DNA of 64,000 nt from Oscillospiraceae bacterium (lineage in GTDB: Bacteria; Bacillota; Clostridia; Oscillospirales; Oscillospiraceae), in NCBI GenBank assembly GCA_021770845.1, contig JAETQF010000001.1, forward strand, positions 1-64,000, in the 5' to 3' direction. Every line of letters begins with the position of its first letter. The first letter of the stretch is position 1. Position numbers and translations under genes: made by a program. A model generated the notes under the pieces. It did no database searches, was not told where the DNA came from, and worked only from the letters and a program-made list of their open reading frames with translations. Positions 15,829-26,158 of this stretch are shown one piece after another.

Positions 15829-17406
15829 TCATTTGGCCTTGATCCGGCGCACCTCCAGATAGTAGTGCTCCACCGCCGGATCCAGGGTGACGGTGTCCAC
15901 CCCGTTTTCCCAGTCGAAGCCGAAGTTCTGGCGGACGATCTCCACGCCGTCCGTGTTGACGGCCTTGGCGGTCTGGGCGGCAATGTCCAGATTGGTGCCC
16001 AGCTTTGTCACCAGGTCGTAGCCGTAGATGCCCATGTTTTTCGATCCGGTACAGGCGTGGTCGAAGCTGGCCTCCTTGAGCATTTGGGCCTCCACCGTGA
16101 CGCTGCCCCCGGCGGGGATGGTGACCTCCGCCTCCAGATAGAACACCCGCTGGATCACGTGGGGATACAGATCCTCCAGTGAGGTGAAGTCATAACGGGC
16201 CTCCGGATCGTCCAGCAGGATGCCGGTGTCCAGCAGGCAGTCCTTCATCATGCCAAAGTACAGCTCGAAATCCGGGTCGTCCGCCATGCTGCCGTAGTGG
16301 TTCCAGTCCGTCGCCCCGTAGCGCCGCTCCGCCACCGTGCGCAGGGCGCTGTCCAGATCCGTCTCGTACTGCCGCAGGCCGGCCCCGATGTCCACACCCC
16401 ACTCCAGATAGTCGGTGCTGTCCGGCCCACCGGTGGACACGCCCACCAGCCGGAAGCTGTCCAGCGGATCCCCAATGACAAGGAGGTAATGGCGTTCGGC
16501 CCGATCCCGTTCGTAGATGGCGGGATCCCTTGAGGAGCCCTCCGCCGGGGGCTGGGGAGCGTCGAAGCCCTGCCGCATCTGGCCGCTGTCCCGGTCGTAC
16601 TTTCCGCTGTTAAAGCCGTAGGACAGCACCGTGGTCTTGCTGTAGTCCAGCTCCATCTCCGCATGGATATTGGGGTTGTAATTGCCGCTAACCTTGTTTT
16701 CAACCCCCGGCTCCACCCAGGCGTTGGTGATCTCGTACACCGTCACCGGGACGCCGGACAGGTCGGGCCAGTCCTCCAGCGCCCCGGCCTGATAGCGCCC
16801 GTCGGACAGCAGCTTCCGGTATTCCTCCCAGCTGTCCGGACTGTTCAGGCTGGGCAGGCCGCCGGACCGCCCCACGGCAAGCTGTGAGTACTGCCCGGTG
16901 AGCAGAGTAGTTTGAAGCTCCGCCCCGTCCGCCGTCAGGGTGGGCAGGTATCTCCTGTCGTACAGGCTCTCGGCAAAGGGGTAGAGCAGGGTGACGGTCT
17001 TGTCCTCCCCGGTGGGGTTGGCGAGGGTGTAGGAATCGGTCACCGGGAGGCCATAGTAGAGCCGGTTGAAGTCCCCGGCCATCCACCCCCCAAAGTCATA
17101 GGTGATTGTCCGCTCCGCCGTCAAACCGTCCCCGCCCTCCACCGTGGTGAGGGGGAACACCGGCCCGGCGTAGGACATGAATGTGGAGCCCTCATTGTGT
17201 CCGCCGCCCCCTCCGCTGCGGCCGCCGATGGGCAGCTTCCCGCTGAACACCCCCGCGCCCAGACCCACCACCAGCGCCGCCGCCGCCGCGACGGAGCCGA
17301 ACTTCAGCCAGCGCACCTTGCTTTTGGCGGGCTTTATCTCGATGGCCTCCACGATCAGCTCGTCCCTGACCCCCGTGATGGCGTCATACAGCATTTCCCT
17401 GGTCAT
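15829..17406 (-). CDS. Membrane protein, probable cognate anti-sigma partner
   Basis: MTREMLYDAITGVRDELIVEAIEIKPAKSKVRWLKFGSVAAAAALVVGLGAGVF: cytoplasmic N-terminus, one TM, large outer domain; start overlaps the ECF sigma stop by 4 nt. Confidence 0.7.
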   Translation of the reverse strand: MTREMLYDAITGVRDELIVEAIEIKPAKSKVRWLKFGSVAAAAALVVGLGAGVFSGKLPIGGRSGGGGGHNEGSTFMSYAGPVFPLTTVEGGDGLTAERTITYDFGGWMAGDFNRLYYGLPVTDSYTLANPTGEDKTVTLLYPFAESLYDRRYLPTLTADGAELQTTLLTGQYSQLAVGRSGGLPSLNSPDSWEEYRKLLSDGRYQAGALEDWPDLSGVPVTVYEITNAWVEPGVENKVSGNYNPNIHAEMELDYSKTTVLSYGFNSGKYDRDSGQMRQGFDAPQPPAEGSSRDPAIYERDRAERHYLLVIGDPLDSFRLVGVSTGGPDSTDYLEWGVDIGAGLRQYETDLDSALRTVAERRYGATDWNHYGSMADDPDFELYFGMMKDCLLDTGILLDDPEARYDFTSLEDLYPHVIQRVFYLEAEVTIPAGGSVTVEAQMLKEASFDHACTGSKNMGIYGYDLVTKLGTNLDIAAQTAKAVNTDGVEIVRQNFGFDWENGVDTVTLDPAVEHYYLEVRRIKAK

Positions 17407-17960
17407 ACCGCAAATCCCTCCTGTTCCAAGTCCCGTTTCAGGCTTTTCCGCAGCCGCTGGAGCCGTTTGGCCATCTGGTTGGGGCTGACGCCCCAGGCCC
17501 TGGCCAGCGCCTGCACCTCCTGCCCGTACCAGTACCGCCGGAGGAACACCGCCCGGTCGTCCCGGGGCAGGCCCTCCAGCCAGCCCTCCACCCGGCGGGT
17601 GAGTTCCCGGCCCTCCACGGTGCGCTCCACGTCCTGGGGATCCGGCAGGCATTCCTCCAGCCCGGACAGCAGGCTTTCCAGACCTGTGTACCGCTTTTGC
17701 GCCCGCTCCCGCCGCCAGCGGCTGATGGACAGGTTGCGCACGATCCGCCCCAGGAAGGGCGGCAGGCGGTCGGGCCGCTGGGGCGGCATGGCGTTCCAGG
17801 CGTGGTGGTAGCTGTCGCTGACACACTCCTCCGCATCCTCCCGGACGGACAGGATGTTCTGGGCGATGGCCCGGCAGTAGGGGCCGTACTTTTTGCCGGT
17901 CTCCGCGATGGCGTTTTCGTCCCGGCTCCAATACAGCGCGACAATGGCGGCGTCTTCCAT
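17403..17960 (-). CDS. ECF-type RNA polymerase sigma factor (sigma-70 family)
   Basis: YCRAIAQNILSVREDAEECVSDSYHHAWNAMPP (region 2) and LARAWGVSPNQMAKRLQRLRKSLKRDL (region 4). Confidence 0.92.
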   Translation of the reverse strand: MEDAAIVALYWSRDENAIAETGKKYGPYCRAIAQNILSVREDAEECVSDSYHHAWNAMPPQRPDRLPPFLGRIVRNLSISRWRRERAQKRYTGLESLLSGLEECLPDPQDVERTVEGRELTRRVEGWLEGLPRDDRAVFLRRYWYGQEVQALARAWGVSPNQMAKRLQRLRKSLKRDLEQEGFAV

Positions 17961-18065: not shown

Positions 18066-18094
18066 TTGCCTCTGCCGGCAGAATGTAGTACAAT
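18066..18094 (+). promoter_or_regulatory. Sigma-A promoter for the SWIM-HEAT-MoxR-DUF5682-VWA operon
   Basis: TTGCCT - 17 nt - TACAAT. Confidence 0.6.
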
Positions 18095-18131
18095 ATGGCT
18101 GATTTATTCTCCATAGGAAGGAGTAATCCTC

Positions 18132-19574
18132 GTGGATTTGACCGAACAATTCATCCTTCTTCAGGCCCCCAACCCCGCGGCGGCGGAAAACGGCCGGAAG
18201 CTGTCGAAAAAGGGCAGCTTTTCCGCCCACCACCGGACAGAAGACGGCACCCTCTATTGGGCGGAGTGCGCGGGCAGCGGCAAGAACCCCTACCGGGTGT
18301 CCATCGACTTCACCAACCGGGACGCGCCCACCTGCCGGTGCTCCTGCCCCAGCAGGCAGTTTCCCTGCAAGCACGCTCTGGGGCTGATGTTCGAGATCCT
18401 GGGGGCGAAGCCCTTCGAGACGGCGGACATCCCCCAGGACATCGCCGACAAGCGGGCCAAGCAGGCCGCCCGGGCGGCGAAAAAGGAGGGGGCCGCAGGC
18501 GAGCCCCCCAAGCCCAAAAAGCCCAACGCCGCCGCCCGAAAGAAAAAGCTGGCCCGGCAGCTGGAGGGGCTGGACATGGCGGAGAAGATGGTGGACGAGC
18601 TGCTGACCTCCGGCCTGGGCACCCTGGCGGGCAGCTCCGCCCAGACCTTCGACAAGCTGGCCAAAGAGCTGGGCAGCAGCTACCTCACCGGGCCCCAGAC
18701 GGCCTTTACCCGGGTGGCCCTGGCGGTGCGGGCGGTGCAGAAGGATCCCGCCCAGGCGGACGCGGCCTACAACCAGGCCCTGCGGCTGATGGTGGCGCTG
18801 CGCTCCACCATCAAAAAGGGGCGGGTGTTCCTGGAGGGCAAGCTGGAGGCCGGGGATTTCTCCGCCGAGGACTCCGCCCTCTTTGAGGCCCTGGGCGGCG
18901 TGTGGACGCTGGAGGAGCTGGGGGCCATCGGTTCCGTCAGAGAGAACGCGAAGCTGGTGCAGCTCTCTTTTGACGTGTCCCTCGACCAGGCCAAGAAGGA
19001 GTATGTGGAGCGGGGCTGGTGGCTGGACGTGGACAGCGGCGAGATCTGGCAGACGCTGAACCTGCGCCCCTTGAAGGCGCTGAAATACGTGAAGGGGGAG
19101 GACAGCCGGTTCGGGCTGCTGGAAGTCCCCGCCCTGTACATCTACCCCGGGGAGGGGGATCGGCGGGTGCGCTGGGAGAGCGCGTCCACCCGGCCCCTGA
19201 CGGCCCGGGAGCAGGCGGCCCTGTCCAGGCTGGCCCAGCCCGGTGTGGCGGAGGCGGCCAAGCTGGTGAAGGGGAAGATCAAGAACACCCTGGCCCCCAA
19301 GTTCCTGGCGGCGCTGCTGCCCGTGGGGAGCATTGGGAGGATTGGGGAGGACTACGTACTGGAGGATCCGGCGGGGGCCCGGATCGCCCTGCGGGACAGG
19401 GCGGAGGACGGGGTGGATCACGCCTGTACAGAGCGGCTGGGGATGCTGCCCCGGAAAATCCCGGCGGGCAGCGCCCTGTTCGGGCTGATGTTCTACGATG
19501 GGCGGGACAAGGCCCTGTGCCTCCACCCCTGCAGCGTGGTGACGCCGGACGAGATCCTCCGGCTGCAATATTGA
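18132..19574 (+). CDS. SWIM zinc-finger protein
   Basis: PTCRCSCPSRQFPCKHALGLMFEI: CxC...CxH SWIM motif. GTG start after GGAAGGAG. Confidence 0.88.
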   Translation: MDLTEQFILLQAPNPAAAENGRKLSKKGSFSAHHRTEDGTLYWAECAGSGKNPYRVSIDFTNRDAPTCRCSCPSRQFPCKHALGLMFEILGAKPFETADIPQDIADKRAKQAARAAKKEGAAGEPPKPKKPNAAARKKKLARQLEGLDMAEKMVDELLTSGLGTLAGSSAQTFDKLAKELGSSYLTGPQTAFTRVALAVRAVQKDPAQADAAYNQALRLMVALRSTIKKGRVFLEGKLEAGDFSAEDSALFEALGGVWTLEELGAIGSVRENAKLVQLSFDVSLDQAKKEYVERGWWLDVDSGEIWQTLNLRPLKALKYVKGEDSRFGLLEVPALYIYPGEGDRRVRWESASTRPLTAREQAALSRLAQPGVAEAAKLVKGKIKNTLAPKFLAALLPVGSIGRIGEDYVLEDPAGARIALRDRAEDGVDHACTERLGMLPRKIPAGSALFGLMFYDGRDKALCLHPCSVVTPDEILRLQY

Positions 19575-19586
19575 GGAGGTGCGGGG

Positions 19587-21497
19587 ATGAACTTACAGCC
19601 TCTTTACGATGTGAAGGAGCGGCTGGAATACGCCGCCATTGCGGGGGTGTCCCTGCTGGGGGAGGACTTCCGGCTCCAGCGGGCGGCGGAGGGGCTGAAG
19701 CCCCTGGCCGCGGCCAGCCCGGTGTTCGGCAAGATCGACGGCGGGCTGACGAAGCTGCTGGCCGCGCCGCCGGAGCAGCGGGCGGGCCTGCTGCTGGACG
19801 TGCTGGCCCTGGTGGACGCGGTGGCCTACACCCAGGCCAAGACCGGTGTGGAGGGGGAGCTGAAGCCTCTGCCCGCCGGGGGCGGGACATACCACCAGAT
19901 TTCCTATGGGCAGATCAACCCCCTGCTCACCGCCCTGACCACCACCGGGGGCGGGCGGATGGAGATCATCCAGTCCGCCTGGGAGAACCACCCCGAGTTC
20001 TTTGAGGATTACCGGGTGCTGCCGGCGGTGGCGGCGGGGCTGGGCGACAGCTACGGCGAGATCGCGGAGCTGAACGCCAAAATTTTGAAACAGGTGGGGC
20101 CGTCTGTCGTCCCGGTGCTGAAGCAGGGCTTCGACCCGGCGGGGAAGAAGGAGATGGCCCGCCGGGTGGAGGTCATCGCCGCCGTGGAGGGGGCGGAGGC
20201 CGCCCCCTGGCTGCGGGAGGTGCTGCCCGACGCCAAGAAGGACGTGCGTGCGGCGGTGATCACCGCCCTGGGGATGGCGGCGGAGAACGCCGCCCTGCTG
20301 CTGGATCTGGCCAAGTCCGAGCGGGGGGCCAACCGGGACGCGGCGCTGGAGGCCCTGGCCAAGCAGGATGGGGCGGAGATCGCGGCCTTCTGGGCGCAGG
20401 AGCTGGAAGCCCACAGCCAGTCGGTGAAGTTTTTGCAGCCCTCCAACGCGGACTGGGCCTCCGATCTGGTGGCCCGGAGGCTGTGGGACAGGATGGAGGA
20501 GATACTGGCGCGGAAAGAGTCCCTGACCAATCCGGCGGTGATCGAGCTTCGCCAGTGGTTTTCCGCGGCCTTGGGCAAGTCCTCCCCCTCTATGTTGGAT
20601 TTCTGGCGCTGGACAGACGCCAGGCTGGCGGACATCGACCATCTGCGGGGGGAAAAGGAACAGCGCCTGGGCTTTGGGCGGGAGGTGGCGGCCCTGCTGC
20701 TGGAGAGCCTGTGCGCGGCTGGGCCGGGGCCGCTGTGCGGCCTGTGCCTGGAGCTGTGGGAAAGGCACCCAAAGGAGCCCCGTTACCTGTCCCACGCGGT
20801 GGTGGCGGCGCTGATGACCCGCTCGGCGGCGGAGGTCTATGATACCTTCTCCCCCTATGTGCTCACCATTAAGCCCCTGCTGGGCGGCGAGCAGAAAAAG
20901 GCGTTCCACAACGCTGTTCTCCGGGCGCTGGGGCGGGTGTGCAGAAAAGAAGACGGAACTTACTGTATTGACAACGTCTGGCCCACCGCCCAGCCAATCG
21001 ACTCCCAGTGGTTCAAGCGGCTCACCCGCGCCGTGTGGAAAACCACAGGAGAGACGCGCCAGTATGCCCAATACGCTGCCGGGGAGAGCATTGACCAGTT
21101 CGACATGATCCTGATGCGTCTGGCCAACACCGGCGATGAGGAGACGCGCAGGCAGCTGATTCCCTACCTTCGGGAGCGGATGCTGGAGACCGGCCTGCCC
21201 TACAGCTACAGCCGGTTCCTGCTTCAGCTGGGCGGAGGCCCCCGGGGCGTGCTGGGGGATACCATGGTAAAGCGGGCAGGCGCACATTACATTTATGATA
21301 CCTGGAACCTGATGTCGGAGGCATCCAAAACTCTACCCTCCGGCGAGGTGGCCGACCTGCTGGAGGAAGTCCTGCGCTCCAACGCCATCCGCAAGGAGGA
21401 CGCGGCCCTGGCCCAGCGGGTCATCCCCTGGACGGTGGAGCAGCTCCGGGCGGGCCAGCCCTTCCCGGAGTGGGACGACTGGTGGAAAATGCGGTAG
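19587..21497 (+). CDS. HEAT-repeat-like protein (possibly DUF5691-type)
   Basis: Alpha-helical repeats (DVRAAVITALGMAAENAALLLDLAKSERGANRDAALEALAKQDG); position between SWIM and MoxR genes. Confidence 0.65.
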   Translation: MNLQPLYDVKERLEYAAIAGVSLLGEDFRLQRAAEGLKPLAAASPVFGKIDGGLTKLLAAPPEQRAGLLLDVLALVDAVAYTQAKTGVEGELKPLPAGGGTYHQISYGQINPLLTALTTTGGGRMEIIQSAWENHPEFFEDYRVLPAVAAGLGDSYGEIAELNAKILKQVGPSVVPVLKQGFDPAGKKEMARRVEVIAAVEGAEAAPWLREVLPDAKKDVRAAVITALGMAAENAALLLDLAKSERGANRDAALEALAKQDGAEIAAFWAQELEAHSQSVKFLQPSNADWASDLVARRLWDRMEEILARKESLTNPAVIELRQWFSAALGKSSPSMLDFWRWTDARLADIDHLRGEKEQRLGFGREVAALLLESLCAAGPGPLCGLCLELWERHPKEPRYLSHAVVAALMTRSAAEVYDTFSPYVLTIKPLLGGEQKKAFHNAVLRALGRVCRKEDGTYCIDNVWPTAQPIDSQWFKRLTRAVWKTTGETRQYAQYAAGESIDQFDMILMRLANTGDEETRRQLIPYLRERMLETGLPYSYSRFLLQLGGGPRGVLGDTMVKRAGAHYIYDTWNLMSEASKTLPSGEVADLLEEVLRSNAIRKEDAALAQRVIPWTVEQLRAGQPFPEWDDWWKMR

Positions 21498-22604
21498 ATG
21501 GAGGAATATGACATGGCAGACAAAAACGTACAGCGCCTCCCGGCGGAGGAGCTTTATCAGACCGAGCTGGACGCGCTGATTTCGGCGGAGACGGAGCCCA
21601 TCCCCACCGGCTGGCGGATGTCCCCCCGGTCGGTACTGACCTACCTGACGGGGAACACCAAGGTCAAAGGGGTGGACATCACCCCCAAGTACATGGGCAG
21701 CAAGCGGCTGGTGGAGATCGCCATCGCCACGCTGGTGACGGACCGCGCCCTGCTGCTCATCGGCGAGCCGGGGACGGCCAAGTCCTGGCTCAGTGAGCAC
21801 CTGGCCGCCGCCGTCAACGGGGACTCCACCAAGGTGGTTCAGGGCACGGCGGGCACCACCGAGGAACAGATCCGCTACTCCTGGAACTATGCCATGCTCA
21901 TCGCCAAGGGGCCCTGCCCGGAGGCCATGGTGAAAAGCCCGGTGTACCGGGCCATGGAGACTGGCTCCATCGCCCGGGTGGAGGAGATCTCCCGCTGCGC
22001 CAGCGAGGTACAGGACGCGCTGATCTCCATCCTGTCGGAAAAGCGGCTCAGCGTGCCCGAGCTGGGGCTGGAGGTGCCCGCCGCCAAGGGCTTCTCCGTG
22101 ATTGCCACCGCCAACACCCGGGACAAGGGCGTCAACGATATGTCGGCGGCGCTGAAGCGGCGGTTTAATATCGTTGTCCTGCCCACCCCGTCGGATATGG
22201 AGACGGAGATGGACATTGTGCGCACCCGGGTGGCCCAGCTGTCCAGCGGTCTGGATCTCAACGCCCGCCAGCCGGGGGAGGACACGGTGGAGAAGGTGGT
22301 CACCATCTTCCGGGAGCTGCGGGCCGGGGCCACCCTGGACGGCAAGCAGAAGCTGAAAACCACCTCCGGCGTGCTGTCTACCGCCGAGGCCATCTCCCTG
22401 CTGGCCAACTCCATGGCCCTGGCCGGGAGCTTCGGGGACGGGCGGATCTCGGACAGCGATCTGGCCGCCGCCCTCCAGGGGGCCGTGGTGAAGGACGAGG
22501 AGCACGACAAGGTGACTTGGAAGGAGTACCTGGAGAACGTGATGAAGAAGCGGGGGCACGAGTGGTTGCCGCTGTACCGCGCCTGCCGGGAGCTGAACGG
22601 GTGA
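21498..22604 (+). CDS. MoxR family AAA+ ATPase
   Basis: LLLIGEPGTAKSWLSEHLAAAV Walker A, IARVEEISR Walker B region, ATANTRDKGVNDMSAALKRRF. Confidence 0.92.
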   Translation: MEEYDMADKNVQRLPAEELYQTELDALISAETEPIPTGWRMSPRSVLTYLTGNTKVKGVDITPKYMGSKRLVEIAIATLVTDRALLLIGEPGTAKSWLSEHLAAAVNGDSTKVVQGTAGTTEEQIRYSWNYAMLIAKGPCPEAMVKSPVYRAMETGSIARVEEISRCASEVQDALISILSEKRLSVPELGLEVPAAKGFSVIATANTRDKGVNDMSAALKRRFNIVVLPTPSDMETEMDIVRTRVAQLSSGLDLNARQPGEDTVEKVVTIFRELRAGATLDGKQKLKTTSGVLSTAEAISLLANSMALAGSFGDGRISDSDLAAALQGAVVKDEEHDKVTWKEYLENVMKKRGHEWLPLYRACRELNG

Positions 22605-24913
22605 TGAGCGGGCCGGCGTTATTCGGCGTCCGCCACCTGTCCCCGGCGGCGGCGTACCATCTGCGCCGGGCGCTGGACGAGGCAAAGCCGGAGCTGGTGC
22701 TGGTGGAGGGCCCCAGCGACCTCAACGGCCAGATGGAGTGGCTGTGCCACCCAGACACCCGGTTCCCGGCGGCCATTTTGGCCTATACCAAGGAGCCGCC
22801 GGTGCGGACGGTTTTGTGGCCTTTTGCTGTCTACTCCCCGGAGACCCAGGCGATTTTGTGGGCCCACGAGCACGGGGTGGAGTGCCGGTTTATGGATCTG
22901 CCGTCGTCCGTTTTTCTGGGATTTCGGGAGGCGGAATCCGTAGGGGCCGGTGTCCTCACCGGCCTGTCCGAACCCGAAAATTCCCCCGCCGCAGGGGCCG
23001 ATGAGGACATCGGCCCCTACACCGCCGAATCCATCTACCGCCGGCTGGAAACGCTGACCGGGGAGGATCACGACACCTTCTGGGAGCGCACCTTTGAGCA
23101 GCTGGAGGGGGAGGACTTCCAGGCCGTCAACAACACCTTCGGGCGGCAGCTCCGGGCGGCGTCCCTGGAGAGCGGGCGGGATCTGGCGGAGACCGTGGTG
23201 CGGGAGGCGTATATGAAGCGGGTCATGGCCCAGGCTGTTGCCTCCGGCGTGCCCGCGGAGAAGATCTTCTGCGTGTGCGGCTCCTTCCATGTGGCGGGGC
23301 TGGAGGAAAACCGGCCCATGACCGATGAAGAAGAAAAAGCCCTGCCCAAGGCGGACTGCTGCGCCACGCTGATGCCCTATTCCTACTACCGGCTGTCCTC
23401 CCGCTCCGGCTACGGGGCGGGGAACAAGGCCCCGGCCTACTTCGAGCTGCTGTGGGACGCACTGAACCGGGGCGGTGTGGGGGAGGGGGCCTATCTCTAC
23501 CTGACGCGGCTGGCCGCCGCCCACCGGAAGGCGGGCAACCTGGTGTCCTCCGCCGAAGTCATTGAGGCGGTGCGGCTGGCCGATACCCTGGCCGCCATGC
23601 GGGGGAGCAAGTATCCCACCTTGTCAGATTTGCGGGACGCCTCCGTCACCACCATGGGCCACGGCAGCTTCTCCGAGCTGGCCGTCGCGGCGGCGGACAC
23701 CGAGATCGGCAAGAAGATCGGCTTCCTGCCGGAGGGGGTGGCCCGCACCTCGGTGCAGGAGGACTTCTACCGGCAGCTCAAGGAGCTGCGGCTGGAGAAG
23801 TACCGCACCGCCGAATTACAGCGGCTGGATCTGGATCTGCGGGAGAAGCTGAACGTGAAGTCCCAGCAGGCGGCGCTGGGCGATCTGCGGCGGTCGTTTT
23901 TCCTCCACCGGCTGCGGGTGCTGGGGGTGCAGTTTGCCAACCTGCTCCCCTCCCGGCAGGACGGGGCCAACTGGGGGGAGTACTGGGAGCTGCGCTGGAC
24001 AACCGAGGCGGAGATCGAGATCGTGGAGTCCGCCCTCATGGGGGACACCGTCGAGGGGGCGGCGGCCTTTGCCCTGAAGGAGCGGGCGGACAACAGCAGC
24101 TCCATCGCCCAGGCGGCGGCCATCTTCCAGGACGCCTTTTTGTGCGGGATGCCCGGGGCCGCGGCCCACGCGCTGTCGGTTTTGCAGGGGCTCAGCGTGG
24201 ACTCCGCCGCCATCTCGGAGGTGGCGGAGACGGCCTCCCGGCTGTCGCTGGTGGTGCGGTACGGCGATTTGCGGCGGTTTGACCCGGCCCCGGTGGTGCC
24301 GCTGATCAAGCAGCTCTATCTGCGCTCGTGCCTGACGCTGGAAAGCGCCTGCGTGTGCGATAGCAAAGCCGCGTCTGCTGTTACCCAGGCGATGGACAGG
24401 ATAAACACTTTACAGCTAAACCACGAATTTCTGGAGGAGGATCGGTGGCTCAAGCTGCTGACCAGCATCTCGGATCGGGACGATCTCAACACCCACTGCT
24501 CCGGCTTCGCCATGGCCATTCTGCTGGAGCGGGGCAAAGCGGACGAGGAGCTGCTGTCCCGGGAGGTGGCCCGGCGGCTGTCCCCCGGGGTGCCCGCCGA
24601 CCTGGGGGCGGGGTGGTTCGAGGGGCTGGCGGGCAAGAACCGCTATGCCCTCATCGCCCGGCTGTCCCTGTGGCGGCAGCTGGATCAGTACCTCAGCGGG
24701 CTGGACGACGAGACCTTCCGGCGGGCACTGGTGTTCCTGCGGCGGGCCTTCGCCGACTTTTCCCCCTCGGAAAAGAACGACATCGCGGAGAACCTGGGGG
24801 AGATCTGGGGGGTCAACGCCCGGCAGGCGGCGGAGATCCTGATGAACGACGTGACCGAGGCGGAGCAGGCGGTGCTGGACAGCCTGGACGAATTCGACTT
24901 TGACGATATTTAG
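22604..24913 (+). CDS. DUF5682-like protein
   Basis: LFGVRHLSPAAAYHLRRALDEAKPELVLVEGPSDLNG ... KIFCVCGSFHVAGLEEN; starts on the moxR stop codon (TGATG). Confidence 0.75.
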   Translation: MSGPALFGVRHLSPAAAYHLRRALDEAKPELVLVEGPSDLNGQMEWLCHPDTRFPAAILAYTKEPPVRTVLWPFAVYSPETQAILWAHEHGVECRFMDLPSSVFLGFREAESVGAGVLTGLSEPENSPAAGADEDIGPYTAESIYRRLETLTGEDHDTFWERTFEQLEGEDFQAVNNTFGRQLRAASLESGRDLAETVVREAYMKRVMAQAVASGVPAEKIFCVCGSFHVAGLEENRPMTDEEEKALPKADCCATLMPYSYYRLSSRSGYGAGNKAPAYFELLWDALNRGGVGEGAYLYLTRLAAAHRKAGNLVSSAEVIEAVRLADTLAAMRGSKYPTLSDLRDASVTTMGHGSFSELAVAAADTEIGKKIGFLPEGVARTSVQEDFYRQLKELRLEKYRTAELQRLDLDLREKLNVKSQQAALGDLRRSFFLHRLRVLGVQFANLLPSRQDGANWGEYWELRWTTEAEIEIVESALMGDTVEGAAAFALKERADNSSSIAQAAAIFQDAFLCGMPGAAAHALSVLQGLSVDSAAISEVAETASRLSLVVRYGDLRRFDPAPVVPLIKQLYLRSCLTLESACVCDSKAASAVTQAMDRINTLQLNHEFLEEDRWLKLLTSISDRDDLNTHCSGFAMAILLERGKADEELLSREVARRLSPGVPADLGAGWFEGLAGKNRYALIARLSLWRQLDQYLSGLDDETFRRALVFLRRAFADFSPSEKNDIAENLGEIWGVNARQAAEILMNDVTEAEQAVLDSLDEFDFDDI

Positions 24914-24925
24914 GAGGTGCGGGCC

Positions 24926-26101
24926 ATGGCGCAGACCGAACAGCTCTCCCGCTGGCGGCTGATTTTAGGCGCGGAGACAGAGGACTCCTTCACCGGCATG
25001 GGGGCCGGGGGCCTGTCCCAGGAGGAGCTGCTCATGGATGGGGCGCTGGGGGCCATCTACGGCGGGCCCGGTGAGAGCTTCGGAAGCGGCGGCGGGGCAT
25101 CTGGCGGGGCGGGGAAGGGCCCGTCCTCCCCGGTGATCTCCAAGTGGCTGGGGGATCTGCGCTCCCTGTTCGACCCGGAGATGGTGGCGGTGGTGCAGAA
25201 CGACGCCATCGAGCGTAAAGGGCTGAAGCAGCTGCTCCTGGAGCCCGAGCTGCTGGAGGGGCTGGAGCCGGATCTGAATCTGGCGTCCACGCTGCTGATG
25301 CTCAAGGATCAGATCCCCAAGAAGTCCAAGGAGTCCGCCCGGAAGTTCATCCGCAAAATTGTGGAGGAGATCAACCGCCTGCTGGAAAATGACGTGCGCC
25401 GGGCGGTGACGGCGGCCCTGAACCGCCGGGCCCACGCCCCTCTGCCGTCGGCGGCGGCCATCGACTTCCCCTATACCATCCGGCGGAACCTGCAAAACTA
25501 CAGCCCGGAGCTGAAAGCAGTCATCCCGGAGCGGGTATGGTTTTTTGACCGCTCCAGCAAGATCAACCGCTGGCACATCATTCTGGATATCGACCAGAGC
25601 GGCTCCATGGGGCAGTCCATCCTCTATTCTTCGGTGATGGCCTGTGTGCTGGCCTCCATGTCCGCCGTCAAGACCAGTGTGGTGGCCTTCGATACCCAGA
25701 TCATGGACTTGACGCCCCTGTGTGCCGACCCGGTGGATCTGCTGTTCGGCTTCCAGATGGGGGGCGGCACCGACATCGCCAAATCCATCGCCTACTGTCA
25801 GGGGCTCATTGAGGCCCCGGCGAAAACCCTGTTTTTCCTCATCTCCGACCTGTGTGAGGGAGGCAACCGGGCGGCCCTGCTGCGCCGGGTGGAGGAGCTG
25901 AAAAGCTCCGGGGTGAACGTGGTGGTGCTGCTGGCCATCGCCGACGGGGGCAAGCCCTTCTACGACCCGGAGACTGCCCGGCGGATCGCCAATCTGGGCG
26001 TTCCCTGCTTCGCCTGCGCCCCGGAGCGGCTGCCCGAGCTGCTGGAGCGGTGCCTCAAGGGCCAGAGCCTGGAGGGGCTGGTGGCGAAGGGCAAGGCGTA
26101 G
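24926..26101 (+). CDS. VWA domain protein (CoxE/ViaA-like partner of MoxR)
   Basis: IILDIDQSGSMGQSILYSSVMACVLASM (MIDAS DxSxS) and MGGGTDIAKSIAYC. Confidence 0.9.
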   Translation: MAQTEQLSRWRLILGAETEDSFTGMGAGGLSQEELLMDGALGAIYGGPGESFGSGGGASGGAGKGPSSPVISKWLGDLRSLFDPEMVAVVQNDAIERKGLKQLLLEPELLEGLEPDLNLASTLLMLKDQIPKKSKESARKFIRKIVEEINRLLENDVRRAVTAALNRRAHAPLPSAAAIDFPYTIRRNLQNYSPELKAVIPERVWFFDRSSKINRWHIILDIDQSGSMGQSILYSSVMACVLASMSAVKTSVVAFDTQIMDLTPLCADPVDLLFGFQMGGGTDIAKSIAYCQGLIEAPAKTLFFLISDLCEGGNRAALLRRVEELKSSGVNVVVLLAIADGGKPFYDPETARRIANLGVPCFACAPERLPELLERCLKGQSLEGLVAKGKA

Positions 26102-26129: not shown

Positions 26130-26158
26130 TTGACAAGTTGGTTTACTTGTTGTAGACT
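26130..26158 (+). promoter_or_regulatory. Promoter for blaI-like/M56 operon
   Basis: TTGACA - 17 nt - TAGACT. Confidence 0.7.

Follow-up and report, generated by a model that had tools for sequence, protein, structure and literature searches.

A YehL-type MoxR operon in an Oscillospiraceae bacterium: five co-inherited genes and a predicted TraB/TIKI-type domain in the DUF5682 protein

The window, by which we mean the whole 64,000-nt stretch of DNA that was analysed (contig JAETQF010000001.1, Oscillospiraceae bacterium), carries a set of five genes at 18132–26101, all on the plus strand, encoding SWIM, HEAT-like, MoxR AAA+, DUF5682 and VWA proteins. The genes and the site at their head are as follows.

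18066..18094, plus strand: promoter-like TTGCCT-N17-TACAAT (pattern scan, 9/12 consensus matches)
18132..19574, plus strand: gene 1, SWIM zinc-finger protein of 480 aa, whose GTG start codon follows AGGAG (Pfam SWIM PF04434, 3.6e-8)
19587..21497, plus strand: gene 2, HEAT-repeat-like protein, 636 aa (Pfam HEAT_2, 9.6e-5, below the Pfam cut-off)
21498..22604, plus strand: gene 3, YehL-type MoxR AAA+ ATPase, 368 aa (AAA_5, 4.3e-39)
22604..24913, plus strand: gene 4, DUF5682 (YehM-like) protein, 769 aa, ATG start (PF18934, 1.9e-153)
24926 (or 24917)..26101, plus strand: gene 5, VWA (CoxE-like, YehP-like) protein, 391 aa (VWA_CoxE, 7.9e-44)

The gaps between successive genes are 12, 0, −1 and then 3 or 12 nt, the last depending on the start chosen for the VWA gene, and the tight packing on one strand claimed in the preliminary description was thus found at all positions. 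The ATG of the DUF5682 gene overlaps the MoxR stop by one base; a 798-aa reading of its open frame starts 29 codons too early and was rejected in favour of the ATG at 22604. The same description placed a promoter at the head of the genes. The site is indeed present, but it matches the consensus at only 9 of 12 positions, and chance alone would give ∼1.4 sites of this quality in the region scanned. A site with a better consensus match, TTGACA-N17-TAGACT at 26130–26158, lies ahead of blaI, where a promoter had also been proposed, and no terminator-like site was listed for the vwa-blaI interval. From the arrangement of the genes, a single transcription unit for all five is plausible. The downstream neighbours are BlaI/BlaR1 genes and the upstream neighbour is a divergent sigma-70-like gene (17403–17960, minus strand). 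The latter is followed (region 15829–17960, minus strand) by a gene for a protein of 538 aa, perhaps a sigma regulator, for which Pfam gave no convincing match.

MoxR ATPases fall into seven subfamilies defined by sequence and gene context, one of which is YehL (PMC3893208). We placed the MoxR protein of the window by pairwise comparison with YehL and RavA, together with gene context. It is 40% identical to E. coli YehL over the full length (E 2e-83), whereas the match to RavA, another E. coli MoxR, covers 120 residues at 19% identity (E 0.008), and its context with DUF5682 and VWA (and SWIM) genes fits the YehL subfamily. Besides the AAA_5 match (134 bits) it shows a partial bpMoxR match of 28.5 bits against a cut-off of 27. 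The motifs of the ATPase and of the VWA protein that bear on activity are these.

21762..21785, plus strand: Walker A GEPGTAKS, residues 89–96 of MoxR (conserved in 88 sequences)
25592..25609, plus strand: MIDAS DQSGSM, residues 223–228 of the VWA protein (kept by at least 97% of the 74 sequences compared)

MoxR keeps the GxPGTAKS motif as well as the sensor motifs, and its family has EE instead of DE in Walker B. The VWA protein keeps DQSGSM-GGG(T)-(S/T)D; it consists of its own domain only, and its full-length relatives are uniform at 376–404 aa. An ATP-dependent MoxR-VWA module, as first suggested for the locus, is supported.

The closest described counterpart of the operon is the yehL-yehM-yehP-yehQ cluster of E. 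coli K-12 (with yehF, yehI and yehK), which is homologous to it: DUF5682 aligns with YehM over the full length at 24% identity, and the VWA protein shares 34% identity with YehP. The two share MoxR, DUF5682 and VWA, and the E. coli cluster has a SWIM gene too. They differ in that E. coli has DUF4132 (YehI) and WGR (YehF) in place of HEAT; its cluster starts with the WGR gene, includes DUF4132 genes and has the SWIM gene last, not first. A different arrangement, SWIM-DUF5691-AAA-DUF5682-VWA, was found in Deinococcus, Rhizobium and Methylosinus. Here the gene order and four of the five families are those of the window, whereas the second gene encodes DUF5691, whose profile shows no significant similarity to that of the HEAT protein. 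These operons are annotated, but no description of them was found in the literature searched, nor any paper there naming DUF5682 or DUF5691; the VWA gene of the Methylosinus operon looks broken. Judged by sequence, the operon extends the known YehL-type MoxR operon and is not a new kind. It is real, conserved and under-described, as had been proposed, although its identity had been missed. Nearly all E. coli carry an intact yehLMP (5184 of 5426 genomes, ∼95% of complete genomes). Strain KFu022 (L170:12752–16400) carries an internal deletion that joins the WGR gene to the VWA gene with loss of most of the yeh operon, and its yehQ is frameshifted.

To assess conservation beyond E. coli, public genomes were scanned with MoxR. 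At least 578 relatives were found, of which the best 80 were kept, and among these 80 nearly all complete loci have the order SWIM-HEAT-MoxR-DUF5682-VWA. Their hosts are mostly Lachnospiraceae and Oscillospiraceae, but also Treponema and a Desulfovibrio bin. Across the 56 loci in which all five proteins are full-length, pairwise protein distances correlate between genes at r = 0.79–0.95. As shared ancestry alone gives some correlation, a second, unbiased test used genomes chosen by DUF5682 alone. In these 13 genomes VWA was adjacent or fused in all 13, and MoxR and SWIM were each present in 11. The two without MoxR are a contig end and a lone DUF5682-VWA fusion. Six of the 13 have the layout of the window and five are arranged as MoxR-DUF5682-VWA-(DUF4132)-SWIM, like E. 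coli. The five-gene set is real and co-inherited, and the co-conservation that the preliminary description had named as a check is strong in both samples. The operon is patchy in Bacillota, being present in 8 of 399 genomes over the cut-off and in 5 of 20 close relatives.

Several genes of the set also occur as fusions. The DUF5682-VWA fusion just mentioned (L020:7445–10426) has no MoxR within the 12 kb of sequence examined, and could be useful for learning what this pair does alone. In Hymenobacter (L106) a SWIM-like N-terminal region is fused to DUF5691. Together, the two fusions suggest physical partnership. Some operons carry additional genes. An RtcB RNA-ligase gene (L094:3484–4692 and L100:13383–14591) separates DUF5682 from VWA in two operons that are nearly the same; we rejected the reading of these as two insertion events and counted them once, since the MoxR proteins are nearly identical. 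In L100 this gap also holds a gene for an HSDR_N_2 domain protein, of which L092 has a homologue at the same place. Toxin-antitoxin-like pairs lie inside two further operons, HepT-like plus nucleotidyltransferase at L055:2792–3530 (HepT below cut-off) and RelB plus PIN at L083:3707–4483.

The main new result concerns DUF5682, in which we identified a predicted TraB/PrgY (TIKI)-type domain with a two-His/two-Glu motif set at the N-terminus.

22604..23428, plus strand: TraB/PrgY (TIKI)-type N-terminal domain, residues 1–275 (profile, Pfam cross-match, fold search)
22634..22636, plus strand: His11 in GxRH, putative active-site residue (without variation among 47 sequences and retained across phyla)
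22706..22708, plus strand: Glu35 in (V/I)EGP, putative active-site residue (motif conservation)
23204..23206, plus strand: Glu201 of the REAxM motif (motif conservation)
23288..23290, plus strand: His229 in GxxH, putative active-site residue (motif conservation)

The assignment is based on three independent routes. The profile of the N-domain matched that of 21 PrgY/TraB proteins with a probability of 94.6% (hhalign, P 6.5e-8, score 61.9), compared to maximum scores of 20.4 for 40 column-shuffled controls, 11.7 for the reversed profile and 22.3 for the other operon proteins, and the motifs GxRH, EGP, REAxM and GxxH aligned in register with TraB's own. The Pfam DUF5682 HMM, run over 399 genomes, matched two TraB genes (E 2e-4 and 3e-4). 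Finally, when the predicted DUF5682 structure (pLDDT 85.7 for the whole chain) was compared with BFVD, the sole Foldseek match of probability 1.00 was a TraB family protein, itself a predicted viral structure (E 0.019, TMt 0.44). A fold search of the whole chain against the PDB returned helical-repeat matches only, which swamped the search, and the GumN-type TraB profile alone matched weakly (9%), so that the match is to PrgY/TraB proper. The four motifs are kept, with few exceptions, in E. coli, Deinococcus, Rhizobium, Hymenobacter and Fusobacterium. Compared to the rest of the TraB/PrgY/TIKI superfamily, DUF5682 differs by a fused, mainly helical part of ∼500 aa following the N-domain and by being tied to an AAA+ operon. 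TIKI enzymes have a 2His/2Glu catalytic centre, and some of them are metal-dependent while others are not (PMC6254334). Its TraB/TIKI-type N-domain makes DUF5682 a likely enzyme, in line with the role first suggested for it, although it might instead serve as an adaptor or be catalytically inactive. Identity as an erythromycin esterase was also considered and rejected, as that profile, built from only two sequences, gave no match.

The remaining two proteins may be recognition parts. Their relevant regions are given below.

18291..18392, plus strand: SWIM zinc finger, residues 54–87 of the SWIM protein (CxC...CxH invariant)
18936..19562, plus strand: predicted tandem OB-fold region, residues 269–477 of the SWIM protein (AlphaFold2 pLDDT 89)
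20427..21494, plus strand: residues 281–636 of the HEAT protein, its hypervariable C-terminal part (column identity, 42 sequences)

The best PDB matches of the SWIM protein model are HIN domains (E 6e-4) and RPA70 (E 6e-3), which bind DNA through tandem OB folds. About half of the length is covered, which from the strand pattern of the model would be the C-terminal half, so that tandem OB folds probably make up the C-terminal end of the SWIM protein. As the superposition gives low TM-scores (0.36 by target), the nucleic-acid binding proposed earlier for this protein is consistent with the model but stays a suggestion. A profile search of PDB sequences with the SWIM protein found nothing. Its N-terminal half is homologous to the SWIM protein of the Deinococcus, Rhizobium and Methylosinus operons (hhalign 99.7%), and sequence and profile comparison with E. 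coli YehQ revealed no similarity beyond having a SWIM zinc finger.

The second gene, originally described as encoding a helical-repeat protein, was confirmed to encode a HEAT protein by a match of its family profile to HEAT/alphaRep structures at 9e-12. It is present in one to four tandem copies in the relatives and is the fastest evolving of the set, with a mean identity of 32% compared to 80% for MoxR. Column identity is 0.34–0.57 in residues 1–280 and 0.12–0.24 in residues 281–636, a pattern that would suit a protein with one constant half for docking and one variable half for recognition. Profile comparison of the HEAT protein with DUF5691 and DUF4132 showed no significant similarity, and we therefore call the three positional equivalents only. 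Two operon layouts exist, in which the helical partner is HEAT, DUF5691 or DUF4132.

Other MoxR-VWA pairs offer a guide to function. NorQ-NorD, CoxD-CoxE and RavA-ViaA share with the operon the MoxR AAA+ ATPase and a VWA protein with MIDAS, but come without a DUF5682, SWIM or HEAT partner, and in sequence the MoxR and VWA proteins of the window show only marginal similarity to RavA and ViaA. In NorQ-NorD, the VWA protein reaches with a finger into the pore of MoxR, and a linker is twisted by ATP turnover so that metal can be inserted into the target (PMC13036017), and the MIDAS of NorD is thought to bind the target (PMC9976466). By this analogy, a MoxR hexamer with its VWA partner would form an ATP-driven remodeller, and the protein that it remodels or licenses would be DUF5682, as a dedicated client or partner. 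Loading, opening or maturation by MoxR-VWA would then allow the hydrolase-like domain to act only when licensed. More weakly, the SWIM/OB protein may bind nucleic acid, and recognition of the target might fall to the variable HEAT protein or to whichever of DUF5691 and DUF4132 occupies its slot, in which case the machine could respond to a nucleic-acid-linked or other cellular signal and not be constantly active. We give an even chance to the general form of this model, in which MoxR-VWA acts as a remodeller for loading or gating the DUF5682 hydrolase and SWIM and HEAT are recognition parts. A more specific form is possible but doubtful: an AAA+-gated hydrolase system in which the SWIM/OB sensor and the hypervariable, duplicating HEAT protein trigger the MoxR-VWA motor, which switches on DUF5682 as a TIKI-type protease or esterase in an inducible conflict or stress response, with a second layout in nearly all E. 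coli.

The YehL subfamily was known already; new here are the TraB/TIKI-type N-domain predicted in DUF5682, the probable OB folds of SWIM, the hypervariable HEAT in one to four copies and the two layouts. If the domain assignment is true, a MoxR-VWA pair would here, to our knowledge, be linked to a TIKI-type enzyme for the first time. The predicted domain gives YehM a class of chemistry and named residues (the equivalents of H11, E35, E201 and H229), and the variable HEAT/DUF5691/DUF4132 slot makes target recognition testable. The YehL operon is intact in the great majority of E. coli, yet no function for it was found in the literature searched.

A conflict role was one of the possibilities named in the preliminary description. 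An anti-phage or other conflict system, in which HEAT (and SWIM/OB) sense the invader, MoxR-VWA relays the signal and the TIKI-type hydrolase is the effector, would agree with the patchiness in Bacillota (8/399 and 5/20), the fast-evolving, duplicated HEAT gene and the toxin-antitoxin-like, RtcB and HSDR_N genes inside some operons. MoxR-vWA ternary systems are also proposed conflict systems (PMC7159879), sharing the MoxR-VWA core plus a third component with the operon. Their third components and effector domains are different, however: Pfam matches in the five proteins include no VMAP, inactive STAND, FtsH or beta-propeller component, the 391-aa VWA protein has no variable C-terminal effector fused to its own domain, and DUF5682, SWIM and YehL are not mentioned in PMC7159879. 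A PADLOC scan of the five proteins fitted no model, with weak partial matches only (SWIM to DpdE/PDC-S62, MoxR to mad8). Instead of the enrichment in defence islands that had been suggested as a check, 21 PADLOC families were matched per 100 flanking proteins compared to 54 per 100 control proteins, where ORFs were crudely called and counts are of families, not proteins. Furthermore, yehLMP is near-core in E. coli (5184 of 5426 genomes) and the search of viral_contigs found no locus, leaving one unverified 'phage' contig. This 14-kb 'Bacteriophage sp.' record (L110, MT835988.1) carries MoxR-DUF5682-VWA and is probably bacterial DNA. Taken together, a defence role is not supported, and we consider this reading unlikely.

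Slightly less probable still is a module for DNA damage or nucleic-acid stress, a special case of the remodeller model in which SWIM/OB, WGR and DUF4132 would recognise damaged nucleic acid and MoxR-VWA-DUF5682 would remodel or cut bound proteins. The predicted OB folds and SWIM, and the WGR gene of the E. coli cluster, are consistent with it. In D. radiodurans, depletion of DdrO strongly induces a DUF4132 gene (PMC8533742) that may or may not belong to such an operon; the layout of the window is without WGR or DUF4132.

The E. coli yeh cluster presumably lies in the molR region by map position. This old molybdate link (molR is named in PMC8533742) would fit a maturation module like NorQD or CoxDE, where a metalloenzyme would receive its metal or cofactor from MoxR-VWA and DUF5682 would be client or metal carrier. 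The VWA protein belongs to VWA_CoxE, NorQD inserts iron (PMC13036017) and some TIKI enzymes, but not others, need metal; this role is nonetheless quite improbable, as no respiratory or molybdenum enzyme recurs beside the operon, the frequent flank families being unrelated, and molybdate genes were unchanged in the Deinococcus study (PMC8533742).

Two sets of records from the survey deserve mention. One DUF5682 match (L172, G367:C158) spans 1397 open-frame residues with one in-frame TAG, and the loci L103 and L107 come from PLSDB plasmid records of 2.1 and 11.9 Mb that look like chromosomes.
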